A DNA stretch of 64,000 nt from Blastococcus xanthinilyticus (lineage in GTDB: Bacteria; Actinomycetota; Actinomycetes; Mycobacteriales; Geodermatophilaceae): NCBI RefSeq assembly GCF_008124835.1, contig NZ_VNHW01000009.1:1-64000 (forward strand), given 5' to 3'. Positions 6,351-57,162 of the stretch are shown piece by piece. The notes under the pieces are model-generated. The model was not told where the DNA came from, did no database searches, and worked only from the letters and a program-made list of their open reading frames with translations. Both the position numbers and the translations under genes were made by a program. Each line of letters opens with the position of its first letter. Position 1 is the first letter of the stretch.

Positions 6351-6356
6351 CGGCCG

Positions 6357-6430
6357 TGGCACGGGGTGTCCCGCCCGGGACTGAGATCACACCCGTCGAA
6401 CCTGCTCCAGTTCGCACTGGCGAAGGGATG
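6357..6430 (+). promoter_or_regulatory. TPP riboswitch (THI element)
   Basis: The conserved THI-box segments are present in order: CGGGGTG, then CTGAGATCACACCC, CGAACCTG, and GCACTGGCGAAGGGATG. It immediately precedes thiM. The 3' strand of the closing helix (GAAGGGA, 6422-6428) doubles as the probable ribosome site for the ATG at 6440. This suggests that TPP binding blocks translation initiation rather than ending transcription; I see no separate terminator hairpin between aptamer and gene. Confidence 0.95.
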
Positions 6431-6439
6431 TCACCCGGC

Positions 6440-7246
6440 ATGTCCGATGCTGTGGAAGTCGTCGACCTGCGCGCTGCCCGCACGGCGCTGCGCGAGAACG
6501 CCCCGCTCGTCCACTGCCTGACCAACACGGTCGTGCAGACGCTGACCGCCAACGCGCTGCTCGCCGTCGGCGCGGCCCCGGCGATGGTGGACGCGCCGCA
6601 GGAGGCCGGCGACTTCGCCGCCGTCGCCTCCGCCGTCCTGATCAACGTGGGCACGGTGCACGAGCGCACCGCGGAGGCGATGCGCCTGGCCGCCCGCTCG
6701 GCCGGTGCGGCCGGCACCCCCTGGGTGCTCGACCCCGTGGCCGTGGGCCCGCTCGCCTACCGCACCGCCCTGGCCGGTGAGCTCGTCGGGCTCGCCCCCG
6801 CCGTCGTCCGGGGCAACGCCTCCGAGGTCATGGCGCTGGCCGGTGCCGGCGCCGGCGGTCGCGGCGTGGACAGCACCGCCGGCGCCGACGACGCGGGCAG
6901 CGCCGCCGCGGGGCTCGCGGCCCGCACCGGCGGGGTCGTCGCGGTGAGCGGGGAGGTGGACCTGATCACCGACGGCACGCGGACCGTCCGCGTCGGCGGC
7001 GGATCGGCCCTGCTGACCCGCACCACCGGCGCAGGCTGCGCGCTCGGCGCCCTGGTCGCCGCGTACGTCGCGGCGACCGGGGATCCCCTGGCCGGCGCCG
7101 TGGCCGCGCACGCGCACGTCGCCCTCGCCGCGGAACGGGCCGCGGCCACCGCCGCCGGTCCGGGCACCTTCGCGGCCGCCTGGCTGGACGCCCTGGACGC
7201 GGTTGGACCCGACGACCTCGCCCGCGCCGACGTCCGGCCGGCCTGA
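6440..7246 (+). CDS. thiM: Hydroxyethylthiazole kinase ThiM
   Basis: A 268-residue kinase that phosphorylates 4-methyl-5-(2-hydroxyethyl)thiazole, the thiazole salvage step of thiamine synthesis. Family motifs are [10 protein letters not shown] at the N-terminus, [28 protein letters not shown] and the phosphate-binding [10 protein letters not shown], with the catalytic Cys in GAGC. I start at ATG 6440 ([10 protein letters not shown]) because the earlier in-frame ATG at 6428 is part of the riboswitch and farther-upstream starts would translate the aptamer. The thiE ATG overlaps its stop by one base. First gene of a TPP-controlled operon. Confidence 0.96.
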
Positions 7247-22119: not shown

Positions 22120-22935
22120 GTGGCTGAGCAGCTGATCGGCGTGCACGTCGGACCGGGTCTGACCGAGGAGAACGAACTGCTGGACGGCGGGCCGCTGGCC
22201 CGCGCGGCGGAGGTGGACGCCGACGCGGTGCAGGTGTTCCTGGCCGACCCGCAGGGGTGGAAGGCACCGAAGCCGCGCCCGGACGCCGAGGCGCTGCTCG
22301 GCTCCGACGTCGCCGTGTTCGTCCACGCGCCGTACGTGCTCAACGTCGCGACCACGAACAACCGGATCCGCATCCCCAGCCGCAAGCTGCTCGGAGCGCA
22401 CGCCGCGGCCGCCGCGGCGGTCGGCGCCCGCGGTCTGGTCGTGCACGGCGGCCACGTGCTGGCGAAGGACGACCCGGCGGCCGGGGTGGACAACTGGCGC
22501 AAGACCTTCGCCCGCCAGGCCGAGGACGGCGGGTTCCCGGTGCCGGTGCTGATCGAGAACACCGCCGGCGGCGGCAACGCCATGGCCCGGGAGCTGGACG
22601 CGCTCGCCCGGCTCTGGGAGGCGGTGGGGGAGTTCGGCGCGGGGCTGGTGCTGGACACCTGCCACGCGTGGGCCGCGGGGTGGGACCTGACCACCGTGGT
22701 CGACGACGTCCGGGGGATCACCGGGCGGATCGACCTGGTGCACCTGAACAACAGCCGGGACGCCGCCGGCTCCGGCCGCGACCGGCACGCCCCGCTGGCC
22801 GACGGGGAGATCCCGACGGAGCTGCTGGTCGAGGTGGCGCGGCGGGCCGACTGCCCGGTGCTCCTGGAGACCCCCGGCGACGAGGCGGGTCACGCCGCGG
22901 AGATCGCGCTGCTCCGGGCGGCCCTGGGGACGTGA
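22120..22935 (+). CDS. nfo: Deoxyribonuclease IV / AP endonuclease (Nfo family)
   Basis: A 271-residue TIM-barrel endonuclease IV that cleaves abasic sites in base-excision repair. Metal-ligand segments in order: [49 protein letters not shown] and [19 protein letters not shown] near 205. Length is typical. GTG 22120 is likely leaderless. Divergent from rpsF; 18 bases beyond its stop a 94-bp tandem repeat array begins. Confidence 0.9.
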
Positions 22936-22953
22936 ACCCTGGCCCTGTCGTGA

Positions 22954-23366
22954 GGGTTCAGCGCCCGCGGGGGACGGCACGTGGCCGCGGTGGACTGTCC
23001 TGTCGTGAGGAGTGGGGCCCGGAGGGTCCCGCGAGCGAGCGACGGAAGGGTTCAGCGCCCGCGGGGGACGGCACGTGGCCGCGGTGGACTGTCCTGTCGT
23101 GAGGAGTGGGGCCCGGAGGGTCCCGCGAGCGAGCGACGGAAGGGTTCAGCGCCCGCGGGGGACGGCACGTGGCCGCGGTGGACTGTCCTGTCGTGAGGAG
23201 TGGGGCCCGGAGGGTCCCGCGAGCGAGCGACGGAAGGGTTCAGCGCCCGCGGGGGACGGCACGTGGCCGCGGTGGACTGTCCTGTCGTGAGGAGTGGGGC
23301 CCGGAGGGTCCCGCGAGCGAGCGACGGAAGGGCTCAGCGCCCGCGGGGGACGGCACGTGGCGGCGG
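22954..23366. repeat. 94-bp GC-rich tandem repeat, four full copies plus a partial one
   Basis: Four copies of a 94-bp unit start at 22954, 23048, 23142 and 23236 and look identical by eye. A fifth, shortened copy from 23330 begins GGGCTCAGCG (one T-to-C change) and diverges after GCACGTGGC near 23360. It fills the 398 bp between nfo and the convergent membrane-protein gene, whose last codons lie in the partial copy. The unit contains inverted stretches such as GGGCCCGGAGGGTCCC. A diverged relative lies just after dnaA (56859-56945). There are no spacers, so this is not a CRISPR array. Confidence 0.93.
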
Positions 23367-24827
23367 TGATGCCCGGAGGGCATCCATGTGATGGTCCAGG
23401 ACCCCGCCGGCCGGGTCGTCCACGCCGGGCCAGCTGGTGCGCACGACGTCGCGGTCCGGATCCAGCACGTCCCGCACCACGAGGGCCATCAGCACGAGCA
23501 CGGCGACGTCCCGCAGCCCGACGGCCAGGAAGAACCACTCGACGTCGACGCCCATGTCGTCGGCGCCGAGGTACCAGAGCAGCCGCGGCACCCACAGCAC
23601 CGCCTCGGTCGCCTGCCAGGCGAGCAGCGACCGCCACCTGGGGCGGGCGAGGGCCGCGAGCGGCAGCAGCCACAGCGACTCCTGCGGGCTCCACGTCGTG
23701 CCGGTGAGCAGGACGACCGCCACCAGGAGGAAGGCCACCTGGGGCACCCGGGGGCGCACCGGTGCCACCCGGGTCAGCCAGGCCACGGCGGCGAGCCCGG
23801 CCAGCCCCACCAGGACGGCGACCGCGTCCAGCAGGGCGGGCACCGGGTCGGCGCCCGGGCCCCCGGTCAGGTGCACGGCGATGTTCCACAGGCTGTCCGG
23901 TTCGGCCGCCGCGACGCCGGGCAGCGCCGGGAGGACCGCCCAGCCGGCCGGCCCCGCGAGCGCGACCGGGAGGACGACCGCGAGCCAGGTGCCGGCCGCG
24001 GCCAGCGCCGTGCGCGACCAGGCCCGGAGCCGGCCGGCCCGCAGGCACAGCAGGAGCAGCGCGAGCAGCAGGAGGACGGCGTGCAGCGCGGCCGCGGCGG
24101 CGAGCCCGGTGAGGGCACCGGCGAGCAGCAGCCGGCGCCGCGCCCAGGCCCACAGCGCCAGGCCGGCGAGGGCGACGGCGAACAGGTCCCAGCCGGTGAA
24201 GGCGTGCACGAGCAGCAGCGGGGAGAGCCCGATGATGGCGGCGTCCCACGGCCGCCGCCCGGCCAGCGCGAGGGTGCTCCGCACGAGGAGGAACGCGCAG
24301 GCGGTCAGCAGCAGGCAGGTGAGCACGTAGTAGCTCTGCACGGGCGGGATCTCGGGGAGCACGCCGGAGCCGGCGGCCGCGCGGTCGTAGACCCCGGCGA
24401 GCGCCGCGGCCACCGCCGTGAAGCCACCGGTGAGCACCGGCTGGTCGACCACCACGTCGAGGTGCGGCAGCGCGCCGTCACCCAGACCGTGCGTGCCGAA
24501 CAGCGGCACCGCGTCGGAGTAGCAGAGGTGCGTGTACTGGACGCCGGCCGTCCAGTTCCCGTCGGAGCACGGCGCCTGCTTGATCCAGGCGACCGCCAGG
24601 ACCAGCGTGGTGAACAGCAGGCACACCCGCAGCGGCGTCCAGAACAGCGCCCGCCCGGTGACGGCGAACCGGCCCCACGGCCCGCCCACCGCCTCGCTCG
24701 CCTGGCGCACGACCGGATCGACCCAGGAGGGCACCACCCGATCCGGCTCGCCCGGCGGGTGCGTTCCACGTGGAACGACGACGGGCCCGTCCGCGGTGGC
24801 GGACGGGCCCGTGGCCGGGGTGCTCAT
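23334..24827 (-). CDS. Polytopic membrane protein, GT87/GT-C-like (Rv0051 type)
   Basis: A 497-residue protein with about ten to twelve membrane segments, resembling the DUF2029/GT87 polyprenyl-phosphate mannosyltransferase class and occupying the position of mycobacterial Rv0051 next to ponA1. An extracytoplasmic loop after the first membrane helix holds CSDGNWTAGVQYTHLCYSD. No catalytic residue can be named with confidence. The start is 23 bases after the ponA stop, so the two are probably cotranscribed. The last residues (PPPRAVPRGR) are encoded by the partial repeat copy, implying that the repeat has altered this C-terminus. Confidence 0.78.
   Translation of the reverse strand: MSTPATGPSATADGPVVVPRGTHPPGEPDRVVPSWVDPVVRQASEAVGGPWGRFAVTGRALFWTPLRVCLLFTTLVLAVAWIKQAPCSDGNWTAGVQYTHLCYSDAVPLFGTHGLGDGALPHLDVVVDQPVLTGGFTAVAAALAGVYDRAAAGSGVLPEIPPVQSYYVLTCLLLTACAFLLVRSTLALAGRRPWDAAIIGLSPLLLVHAFTGWDLFAVALAGLALWAWARRRLLLAGALTGLAAAAALHAVLLLLALLLLCLRAGRLRAWSRTALAAAGTWLAVVLPVALAGPAGWAVLPALPGVAAAEPDSLWNIAVHLTGGPGADPVPALLDAVAVLVGLAGLAAVAWLTRVAPVRPRVPQVAFLLVAVVLLTGTTWSPQESLWLLPLAALARPRWRSLLAWQATEAVLWVPRLLWYLGADDMGVDVEWFFLAVGLRDVAVLVLMALVVRDVLDPDRDVVRTSWPGVDDPAGGVLDHHMDALRASPPPRAVPRGR
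24763..24776. promoter_or_regulatory. parS-like ParB binding site
   Basis: GTTCCACGTGGAAC, a perfect palindrome in the N-terminal codons of the GT-C-like gene. Confidence 0.8.
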
Positions 24828-28184: not shown

Positions 28185-28910
28185 GTGCTCGAGTTCGCCA
28201 TCCTGGGCCTGCTGCACCAGACACCGATGCACGGGTACGAGCTGCGCAAGCAGCTGGCGCAGGTGCTCGGCGGGCTGCGCAGCATCTCCTACGGCTCGCT
28301 GTATCCGGCGCTGCGGCGGATGCACGCGGCCGGGCTGATCAGCACCGATGAGCCCGAGCGGCATGCCCTGCTCCCCGCCGACGCGCCGCCGCTGACCGGG
28401 CGGCGCGGGAAGGTGGTCTACACGATCACCGCGGAAGGCAAGGAGCGCTTCCACGAGCTCGTCACCCAGACGGGCCCGGAGGCCTACGACGACGGCGGTC
28501 TCTTCGGCGTCCGCCTGGCGTTCTTCCGGCACACGGCCCGCGACGTCCGGCTGCGCATCCTCGAGGGCCGTCGCCGCACCGTGGAGCAGCAGCGGGAGGG
28601 GCTGCGCTCCTCGCTGGCGCGGACCCGCGAGCGCCTCGACCGCTACACCCTCGAGCTGCAGCGCCACGGGCTGGAGTCGGTGGACCGGGAGGTGCGGTGG
28701 CTGTCGGAGCTGATCGACAGCGAGCGCCGGGAGGCGACGGAGCCCGGGGGAGAGCGCCGGGAGGCGACGGAGCCCGGGGGAGAGCGCCGGGAGGCGACGG
28801 AGCCCGGGGGAGAGCGCCGGGAGGCGACGGAGCCCGGGGCAGAACGAGACGGAGCGGGCGGAGCAGCGCAGCCCGGCCAGTTCGGCGAGGAACCGCCGGG
28901 CACCACGTGA
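28185..28910 (+). CDS. PadR family transcriptional regulator
   Basis: A 241-residue PadR regulator from GTG 28185 behind GGGAGGG. The winged helix is at residues 1-90: FAILGLLHQTPMHGYELRKQ, ISYGSLYPALRRMHAAGLI and a wing GKVVYTITAEGKERF. A helical C-terminal dimerization region of about 90 residues follows. The tail contains four copies of ERREATEPGG encoded by a 30-bp tandem repeat. An operator-like palindrome overlaps its promoter region, suggesting autoregulation. It lies just upstream of ino1, as in mycobacteria. Confidence 0.92.
   Translation: MLEFAILGLLHQTPMHGYELRKQLAQVLGGLRSISYGSLYPALRRMHAAGLISTDEPERHALLPADAPPLTGRRGKVVYTITAEGKERFHELVTQTGPEAYDDGGLFGVRLAFFRHTARDVRLRILEGRRRTVEQQREGLRSSLARTRERLDRYTLELQRHGLESVDREVRWLSELIDSERREATEPGGERREATEPGGERREATEPGGERREATEPGAERDGAGGAAQPGQFGEEPPGTT
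28722..28841 (+). repeat. Four 30-bp tandem repeats in the PadR gene
   Basis: Units start at 28722, 28752, 28782 and 28812 and each encodes ERREATEPG(G/A). Only the penultimate base of the last unit differs (G to C). Because 30 is a multiple of three, copy number can change without breaking the frame. Confidence 0.95.
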
Positions 28911-55080: not shown

Positions 55081-56841
55081 ATGGCCGACACGCCGGATCT
55101 GCCAACGGTCTGGGACCAGATCCGCGAGCGGCTGGCGACGAGTCTGTCGCCGCAGCAGAACGCCATGCTGAACCTCACTCGCCCGGTGGGCCTGGTGGAG
55201 GGGACGGCGGTGCTGGCCGCTCCCAACGAGTTCACCCAGACGGTGCTCGAGTCCCGGATGCGCCGGGTGCTCGCCCAGGCGCTGTCCGAGCAGTTCGGCC
55301 GTGACATCCACGTCGCCGTCCAGCTCGAGGACTCCCCGCCCGCGCCGCCGGCCGAGGCTCGCGACGACGAGCCGACCCGGCGCCCCTGGTCGTCGGTCGA
55401 GGCGCAGCGCGAGGAGGAGGACCGGGCCACCCGCGACCGGGCCGACGACGGGCGGAGCGCGTTCGGCGTGCGGGCCGACGTCGTCGGCACCGCCGCCCCG
55501 TGGGACCGCGACACGACCGCCGAGCGCCCCGCGCCCGCGGACTTCCCCGCCGTCCGGGAGCTGCACCCGGCCGACGGCCCGGCCCGCCCGCCGGTGGACC
55601 GCGGCGCCCCCGAGGACTGGAGCACCACCACCTGGGGCGCCGGCGCCGGCGATGCAAGTGCGCAGTCCGGCGGCCGCGACTGGGGAGGCGGCGACGAGCG
55701 CAGCGCCGACGTGCTGCCCTTCGACGTCGACGGCGCGGGGGAGCAGCGGCGTCCCGGGAGCGGGGGACGGGCCCGCCGCCCCGAGTCCGGCCGCCCCGCC
55801 GGGCTGGACCCGGGCCTGAACGCCAAGTACGTCTTCGACTCGTTCGTCATCGGCAACAGCAACCGGTTCGCCCACGCCGCGGCCGTCGCCGTCGCCGAGG
55901 CGCCGGCCCGTGCCTACAACCCGCTGTTCATCTACGGGGAGTCCGGGCTGGGCAAGACCCACCTGCTGCACGCGATCGGCCACTACGCGGCGCGGATGTT
56001 CCCCAACGTGAAGGTGCGCTACGTCAGCACCGAGGAGTTCACCAACGAGTTCATCAACCTGGTGCACTCCGGCCGGGCCGAGGACTTCCGCCGCCGCTAC
56101 CGGGACATCGACTTCCTGCTCATCGACGACATCCAGTTCCTGGAGCGCGCCGAGCGGACGCAGGAGGAGTTCTTCCACACCTTCAACACGCTGCACAACG
56201 CCAGCAAGCAGATCGTCATCACCTCCGACCGTCCGCCGAAGAAGCTGACGACGCTGGAGGACCGGCTGCGCACCCGCTTCGAGTGGGGGCTCATCACCGA
56301 CGTCCAGGCGCCCGACCTGGAGACCCGCATCGCCATCCTGCGCAAGAAGGCCTGGGGCGAGCGGCTGCAGGTGCCCGACCAGGTGCTCGAGTTCATCGCC
56401 AGCAAGGTGCAGACCAACATCCGCGAACTCGAGGGCGCGCTGATCCGGGTGACCGCGTTCGCGTCGCTCAACAAGCAGCAGGTCGACCTCCCTCTGGCCG
56501 AGCTGGTGCTCAAGGACCTGATCAGCGACGAGCAGGGGCCGCAGATCACGGCGGCGATCATCATGGCCGCCACCGCCGAGTACTTCTCCGTGACGATGGA
56601 GGAGCTGCAGGGCACCAACCGCAGCCGCACGCTGGTCAACGCCCGCCAGATCGCGATGTACCTGTGCCGGGAGCTCACCGAGCTGTCACTGCCCCGGATC
56701 GGCGCCTCTTTCGGCGGCAAGGACCACACCACCGTCATGCACGCCGTCAAGAAGATCACCAACCTCATGAGCGAGCGGCGGGCCACCTACACGCAGGTCA
56801 CCGAGCTCACCGCCCGGATCAAGAGCCGCGCCCGGCAGTAA
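55081..56841 (+). CDS. dnaA: Chromosomal replication initiator DnaA
   Basis: A 586-residue initiator ATPase. Domain I spans about 1-85 ([20 protein letters not shown]). A long Asp/Arg/Pro-rich domain II covers about 90-245, typical of actinobacteria. The AAA+ domain III begins [20 protein letters not shown], with Walker [10 protein letters not shown] at 286 and Walker [11 protein letters not shown]. Domain IV carries the DnaA signature [19 protein letters not shown] near 541, which binds DnaA boxes. ATG 55081 follows GAGGAGGACGAGCGGC. It opens plus-strand replication and repair genes running away from oriC. Confidence 0.97.
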
Positions 56842-56858
56842 CTCTGTCGTCCTCCGGA

Positions 56859-56945
56859 CGACACCGCGGCCAGGTGCCGTCCCCAGCTGGGCTGAGCCCA
56901 TCCGTCGCGCCTGCGCGGGACCCTCCGGGCCCCACTCGGCACGAC
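56859..56945 (-). repeat. Diverged copy of the 94-bp repeat after dnaA
   Basis: In reverse orientation this segment matches the array at 22954-23366: blocks GAGTGGGGCCCGGAGGGTCC, GCGACGGA, GGGGACGGCAC and TGGCCGCGGTG occur in the same order with similar spacing. Shorter partial copies follow to about 57055. Confidence 0.8.
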
Positions 56946-57162
56946 CGTGCTCGTTCCGTCCCCCCGCTCGGATGAGCGGGCCGTCGCGCCTGCGGGCCCC
57001 ACTCGGCCGAGCCCATCCGTCGCGCCTGCGGGCCCGCTCGGCGGGACCCTGCCGTGCCGTTCCCCGCCCTGCTTCCGAGGCCCGCCGTGGTGACGGTGTG
57101 CAGGCGGGGCGGTCACCGTCCGGACACCTACCGGCCACCGCCCCGACGCGGTCGACAAGTCG

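Follow-up and report, generated by a model that had tools for sequence, protein, structure and literature searches.

A 94-bp GC-rich unit is repeated in tandem between nfo and a convergent gene in the genome of Blastococcus xanthinilyticus, and a related sequence lies in the opposite orientation behind dnaA. The question is what joins these two sites and why both of them should lie at the end of a gene. The window analysed here is the whole stretch of 64,000 nucleotides that contains both. The array and the dnaA-linked copy are probably members of a single Geodermatophilaceae family of mobile elements that are palindromic, structured and non-autonomous and that insert preferentially at stop codons of genes on the opposite strand. 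The family is dispersed, restricted to Geodermatophilaceae among the genomes searched, built on a covarying structure of one strand and set in register with stop codons; its sites are found full, empty or reversed, and some of its copies lie in frame inside genes.

The array behind nfo and the copy behind dnaA

In the 64-kb window, TRF reported a 94-bp period at 22953-23368 with 4.4 copies and 99% matches, and a search of the unit against the whole genome returned 4/4 array units as identical (100% each), which bears out the four identical copies and a partial one described in the sequence-only reading. In the phase of the element the features are as follows.

22120 to 22935, plus strand: nfo, AP endonuclease (PF01261)
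22947 to 23395, plus strand: whole array in the phase of the element, a partial copy followed by three copies without the terminal hairpin and one full copy
22947 to 22992, plus strand: 5' partial copy covering profile positions 39-84 (of 105), 24.9 bits
23001 to 23093, plus strand: copy 1, without the terminal hairpin, 69.9 bits with the covariance model
23095 to 23187, plus strand: copy 2, without the terminal hairpin, 69.9 bits with the covariance model
23189 to 23281, plus strand: copy 3, without the terminal hairpin, 69.9 bits with the covariance model
23283 to 23395, plus strand: full-length 3' copy with the terminal hairpin, 103 bits, in the model's own alignment
23334 to 24827, minus strand: gene for a GT87 glycosyltransferase, starting at either 24737 or 24827, last codons in the element
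55081 to 56841, plus strand: dnaA, its stop codon at the element boundary
56835 to 56946, minus strand: full-length single copy, its 3' end coinciding with the dnaA stop codon (56839-56841)
56953 to 57048, minus strand: possibly remnants of decayed copies, upstream of the element at dnaA, E 0.41-0.69 (chance level)

The 5' partial copy begins 11 nt past the nfo stop. The true 3' end of the array, 23389/23395, falls within the predicted C-terminus of the convergent GT87 gene, which the full-length last copy overlaps in antisense. Among 18 genomes, this one included, nfo and GT87 overlap by 17-32 bp, with no spacer, in nine. The distance is 398 bp in this genome and 429 bp in G016 (a gap that is partly unresolved sequence); in both, the copies are oriented alike and the last residues of the GT87 protein, ALRASPPPRAVPRGR and ALRASPRPGAVPRLG respectively, are coded by the element. 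The 62-bp gap of G013 holds a copy in the opposite orientation, whose TCA is the exact nfo stop codon. In the remaining six genomes the gaps measure 7-87 bp, and that of G017 contains a weakly scoring copy.

On the dnaA side, a search of the whole 4.6-Mb genome with the 94-bp unit gave matches at 56901-56945 (E 9.1e-9) and 56862-56899 (E 8.7e-6). The profile assigns 119.5 bits to this copy, which belongs to the model's own alignment, and 90.8 bits in the comparison with twenty Markov-shuffled windows, none of which scored above 10.1 bits. Since both window copies are among the 39 sequences behind the model, their profile scores are not independent, and the independent support for the dnaA-linked copy is the plain sequence match of the unit. 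The copy placed at 56859-56945 by the sequence-only reading is therefore real and has the opposite orientation, but it is longer than stated and reaches the dnaA stop, the terminal hairpin having been missed there. The smaller fragments noticed beyond it do look like decayed copies by eye, but score no better than chance. With the unit matching genome-wide, it is excluded that it occurs only at nfo and meets the dnaA region by chance.

Family size and taxonomic range

Across the 4.6 Mb of the genome, 99 sequences match the 94-bp unit at E<=1. In the 35 stretches examined around such matches (634,451 bases including the window), 87 profile matches form 44 clusters, and the element consensus is 105-113 nt long. 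A covariance model built from 39 own copies, R1, was scored on 150 candidates from the whole genome and returns 110 matches at E<=0.01, the 39 model copies among them. When 97 genomes were scanned with R1, with at most 38 candidates per genome scored under strict filters, 47 had matches: 22/23 of the same genus, 25/34 of other genera of the family and 0/40 of other families of the order. The search of the genome and related genera, recommended earlier as a check, speaks for a family of this range. The sole congener without an R1 match is G003, whose genome is a natural negative control for the element; the nine genomes of other genera without a match come from three genera (g6, g9 and g11). 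Plain sequence search gave one borderline match in each of two other-family genomes (E 1.0e-3 and 6.0e-4), and in these two R1 finds nothing.

A 21-base core occurs in at least 115 stretches of the named GTDB set. Among the core matches listed, 79/80 are from Geodermatophilaceae (Blastococcus, Geodermatophilus, Modestobacter, Klenkia and “Geodermatophilaceae bacterium”), several of them sharing one genome, and the one non-family entry is “UNVERIFIED_ORG: Bacillus sp. AZ43”. The element had no Rfam match in the window or in four other copy-bearing stretches. Elsewhere in the window, a TPP riboswitch scores above the gathering threshold at 6352-6445 (plus strand), ahead of a predicted gene at 6452.

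Structure of the element

The 5' part of the full element is a long stem-loop enclosing a further hairpin (GGGGCCC-GGA-GGGTCCC). A conserved linker joins it to the terminal hairpin, whose loop is of the GGA type, and the element ends in TGTCANNGC. A single 94-bp unit folds just slightly better than its shuffles (z -1.48, 14/200), as does the dnaA region (z -1.73, 11/200); the single-unit fold energy being unremarkable, the structural case rests on covariation. In the 39 own copies, 15/24 predicted pairs show changes on both sides that keep the pair. For other genomes the 51 best copies (E<=1e-10) were taken from 100 of the at least 115 core loci and aligned by fitting to the model; in these, the paired share of cells is 94.8%, where shuffles reach 81.2%, and both-sided cells number 139 as opposed to 37.

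G-U wobbles are found predominantly on the sense strand, with ratios to the other strand of 88:7 in the own set and 100:13 in the other-genome set, which marks the sense strand, whether RNA or single-stranded DNA, as the folded one. Open frames are more numerous on this strand than in dinucleotide shuffles (means of 2.31 against 1.98 in own copies and 2.31 against 2.04 in others) and less numerous on the antisense strand (1.69 against 2.08 and 1.55 against 2.14). Short tandem runs of the terminal hairpin alone, apart from the remaining element, were seen at the phoU locus of G016, at L061 and at L040.

Position of the element at stop codons

The position of the element relative to genes was followed in 114 clusters with complete 3' ends facing a gene on the opposite strand (35 own, 79 from core-match loci), the genes having been called with a simple codon-usage gene caller. 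These anchoring and register counts exclude 11/124 clusters, which lay at the edges of stretches, as well as any cluster whose 3' end was incomplete. The 3' end of the element lies within -14 to +4 nt of the opposite-strand stop codon in 85/114 cases, as against a mean of 40 and a maximum of 53 in 2000 simulations of uniform placement in the same gaps; 29/114 fall outside this zone. The stop codon sits exactly at element positions 107-109, as the TCA of the element, in 40/114 (9/35 own, 31/79 others), beyond position 117 in 17/114 and deep inside the element in 8/114. Copies away from such stops often end in TGTCANNGC too, which makes this ending largely a property of the element itself.

Convergent gaps hold 23/44 own clusters as against 35/239 of the gaps of at least 100 nt in the fetched stretches. 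Together with the genome matches and the anchoring, this enrichment bears out the idea of a dispersed palindromic family at gene 3' ends. The statement that the repeats directly follow a stop codon is right in that they are tied to stops; it is the stop of the opposite-strand gene, however, that the 3' end of the element anchors, and some copies lie in frame within genes. In 78 convergent gaps both ends of the element face a stop, which is abutted by the 3' end 56 times and by the 5' end three times. Insertion anywhere in 3' spacers, followed by selection against gene damage, is for that reason disfavoured as the sole cause of the location.

Occupancy of orthologous sites and copies inside genes

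Eleven loci were compared by eye across six congeners, over 150 nt after each stop and with gain and loss unpolarised. G003 is empty at 11/11 of the followed loci, and at leuS, pstB, vwa and the L048 locus the element is present in this genome alone among the seven. It is found in reverse orientation at merR (G020) and ftsX (G016, G017). At nine of these loci the C-terminus of the gene product is as long as in most orthologues, and at the other two, merR and the L048 gene, it differs by 1-2 residues. No target-site duplication could be read, the congener spacers being too diverged at the junctions and the in-gene sites unresolved. On the whole, elements of this family seem to have moved between sites. 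In the spacer downstream of ftsX in G016 and G017, the terminal GGAGG hairpin ends just before the apparent start codon of the next gene, presumably a smpB-like one, and the ribosome-binding site of that gene may come from the element.

The 3' region of dnaA in 23 Blastococcus genomes (this one included) and in G023 carries full, decayed, interrupted or absent copies. In the six best of these 24 orthologous loci, 92.3% of cells are paired and seven pairs have changed on both sides, against 3.1 in shuffles. Such paired changes could come from gene conversion between copies or from local selection for a function in cis. By eye, a region resembling DnaA boxes adjoins the dnaA-linked copy.

A second class of hairpin repeat, of the AAGGACC..CTCGCACGCTCG..GGCC type, lies between the dnaA stop and the element remains in G020, G018, G005, G002, G009 and G019, and is reversed at dnaA of G013. 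Similar sequences trail pstB, vwa or purA in some other species, and a rough pattern for this class has one match in 634 kb of the present genome.

Two of the 44 own clusters sit within intact genes, on the same strand. An AddA-like helicase with UvrD and PD-(D/E)XK domains carries two in-frame copies here and one each in G008 and G005, and none in G002, G003, G006, G007 and G010, in a count from which 4/12 loci (G011, G009, G004, G001) were left out. A metallophosphoesterase carries four in-frame copies here and some in G002, G005, G007, G008 and G013, none in G009 and at most a possible remnant in G006; the automated count left out 5/12 (G000, G014, G012, G003, G010), and G000, which is the present genome, was read separately. 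Three further in-gene clusters in other genomes are known from gene calls alone, two of them on the opposite strand.

Comparison with known repeat families

The element resembles Rickettsia palindromic elements (RPE) and transposase-free CGTC REPs, yet fails the GTAG and CGTC REP sequence features that were tested. Rickettsia is of a different phylum and base composition from Blastococcus. RPEs are palindromic, measure about 150 bp and fall into several families, and nearly half of the R. conorii copies are described as lying in frame in unrelated genes (PMC10969869). The likeness, one of description only, is the in-frame insertion in protein-coding genes, here the AddA-like helicase and the phosphoesterase; the Blastococcus element differs in being mostly intergenic and stop-anchored, with two in-gene clusters of 44.

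CGTC REPs are reported downstream of genes, often between convergent genes and sometimes inside them, with no dedicated transposase; they are 20-40 bp long, with an unpaired CGTC tag, an 8-9-bp stem and a 4-5-nt loop, and are recorded from five phyla, the word Actinobacteria being absent from the main text of that report (Di Nocera 2013, PMC3733652). The present element shares the location downstream of genes, and no dedicated transposase was found for it in searches for Y1 and reverse-transcriptase enzymes. It differs in its 105-113 nt, in its several helices with mostly 3-nt loops (GGA/GNA-type) and in its 5' GTCGTG, which is inside a covarying stem and forms no unpaired terminal tag. With GTAG REPs, BIMEs and REPINs it shares hairpins at gene 3' ends and grouped copies; GTAG REPs, however, are 20-40 bp with GTAG at one end, whereas the consensus here is 105-113 nt with no GTAG at either end, and the REP/REPIN-RAYT arrangement is contradicted by the lack of a RAYT in 36/36 family genomes. 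MITEs are set apart by eye, as the ends GGTCGTGCC.. and ..TGTCANNGC are not complementary and make no terminal inverted repeats.

The MIRU of mycobacteria are intergenic, occur in tandem with a unit length of tens of bases and touch or overlap stop and start codons; where a stop and a start overlap, they run in the direction of the operon. By description only, they are alike as tandem intergenic units of tens of bases at stop codons, and different in that the Blastococcus element is structured and antisense to the gene it anchors. Literature searches of titles and abstract openings, with most subscription papers beyond reach, returned no published description of this element family. We read its members as REP/RPE-like mobile palindromes of a new family, without a RAYT. 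In-frame palindromes are best known from Rickettsia (PMC10969869), and a GC-rich actinobacterial counterpart, together with a congener (G003) in which it has no match, offers a test of how such elements move, of the reason for their siting at stop codons and of whether they supply new protein tails.

Mobility and alternative explanations

According to the mechanism proposed, copies would have arisen by transposition, with the hairpins needed as single-stranded DNA or RNA and some trans-acting enzyme moving the element. It would insert preferentially with its 3' end on, or a few bases from, the stop of an opposite-strand gene, where its terminal TCA would serve as, or coincide with, the TGA stop of the anchored gene. 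Less often it would land in frame inside a gene, to be read on the sense strand with its surplus of open frames over shuffles. Arrays such as that at nfo/GT87 would come from copies duplicated locally after insertion, and the inserted element would probably act passively, its putative role being that of a hairpin at gene 3' ends.

As for the enzyme, a RAYT/Y1 transposase (PF01797) is rejected as mobiliser, being present in 0/36 family genomes, this one included, while 5/14 control genomes were positive. Reverse transcriptase is rejected as well: it occurs in 9/35 family genomes searched without correlation to the element, is missing from many element-rich genomes (e.g. G008, G016, G020, G022) and is present in G032, where the element has no match. 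No mobiliser was thus found among Y1 and reverse transcriptase, the enzymes searched. It is tentatively put forward that the palindrome is of a stop-codon-targeted kind which recognises gene ends and is moved by neither the REP/IS200 (Y1) nor the reverse-transcriptase route. With a TGA in antisense at the end that joins, and with its other strand open to translation, such an element would do little harm to the genes at or in which it lands.

The main competing explanation, considered unlikely, is a structured 3' RNA element that has a function and is maintained by selection: putatively it would be a bidirectional terminator, block antisense transcription, stabilise mRNA or act as a brake on translation. 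The enrichment in convergent gaps, the precise anchoring at stop codons, the paired changes among orthologous dnaA copies and the wobble bias of the sense strand all agree with it, and the brake has a precedent, being reported for E. coli REPs within 15 nt of a stop codon; REPs less than 16 nt from the stop are described as lowering translation (PMC12306157, citing earlier work). Yet the presence of the element varies freely between congeners, G003 having no match, some copies lie inside genes, and of the two strands it is the one poorer in wobble pairs that is transcribed with the anchored gene. Termination, one of the roles suggested in the sequence-only reading, loses ground, as neither window site has an intrinsic terminator (a GC hairpin with a T-run). 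No sigma-70-like promoter was found at either of them.

Very improbable is a DNA site of the REP/BIME type, putatively bound by gyrase, IHF or a nucleoid protein. Such a site would likewise be palindromic, dispersed and at 3' ends, like REPs, and the dnaA copy adjoins the region resembling DnaA boxes; however, the wobble asymmetry of 88:7 means that the two strands are not equivalent, unlike what a duplex-binding site would produce, and there is no known protein for the element. Plain minisatellites with chance GC-rich hairpins, suggested by tandem arrays of similar period at several loci, can be dismissed almost entirely: one consensus is shared by dozens of scattered loci, covariation, restriction to the taxon and in-frame copies likewise speak against them, and they are refuted by unit matches at other loci far above chance and by shuffled windows without a comparable profile match.

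Other repeats

Genomes of Geodermatophilaceae are reported to contain zero to seven “questionable” CRISPRs each (PMC9686282); arrays like the one at nfo/GT87 may, as a guess, account for some of them. Two further tandem repeats of the window were reported by TRF. At 28722-28843, a 30-bp unit in 4.1 copies at 98% forms a coding minisatellite in the predicted gene 28185-28910 and has no match to the element model. At 1607-2115, a 171-bp unit is present in three copies at 82% within a predicted minus-strand gene (1498-2760).
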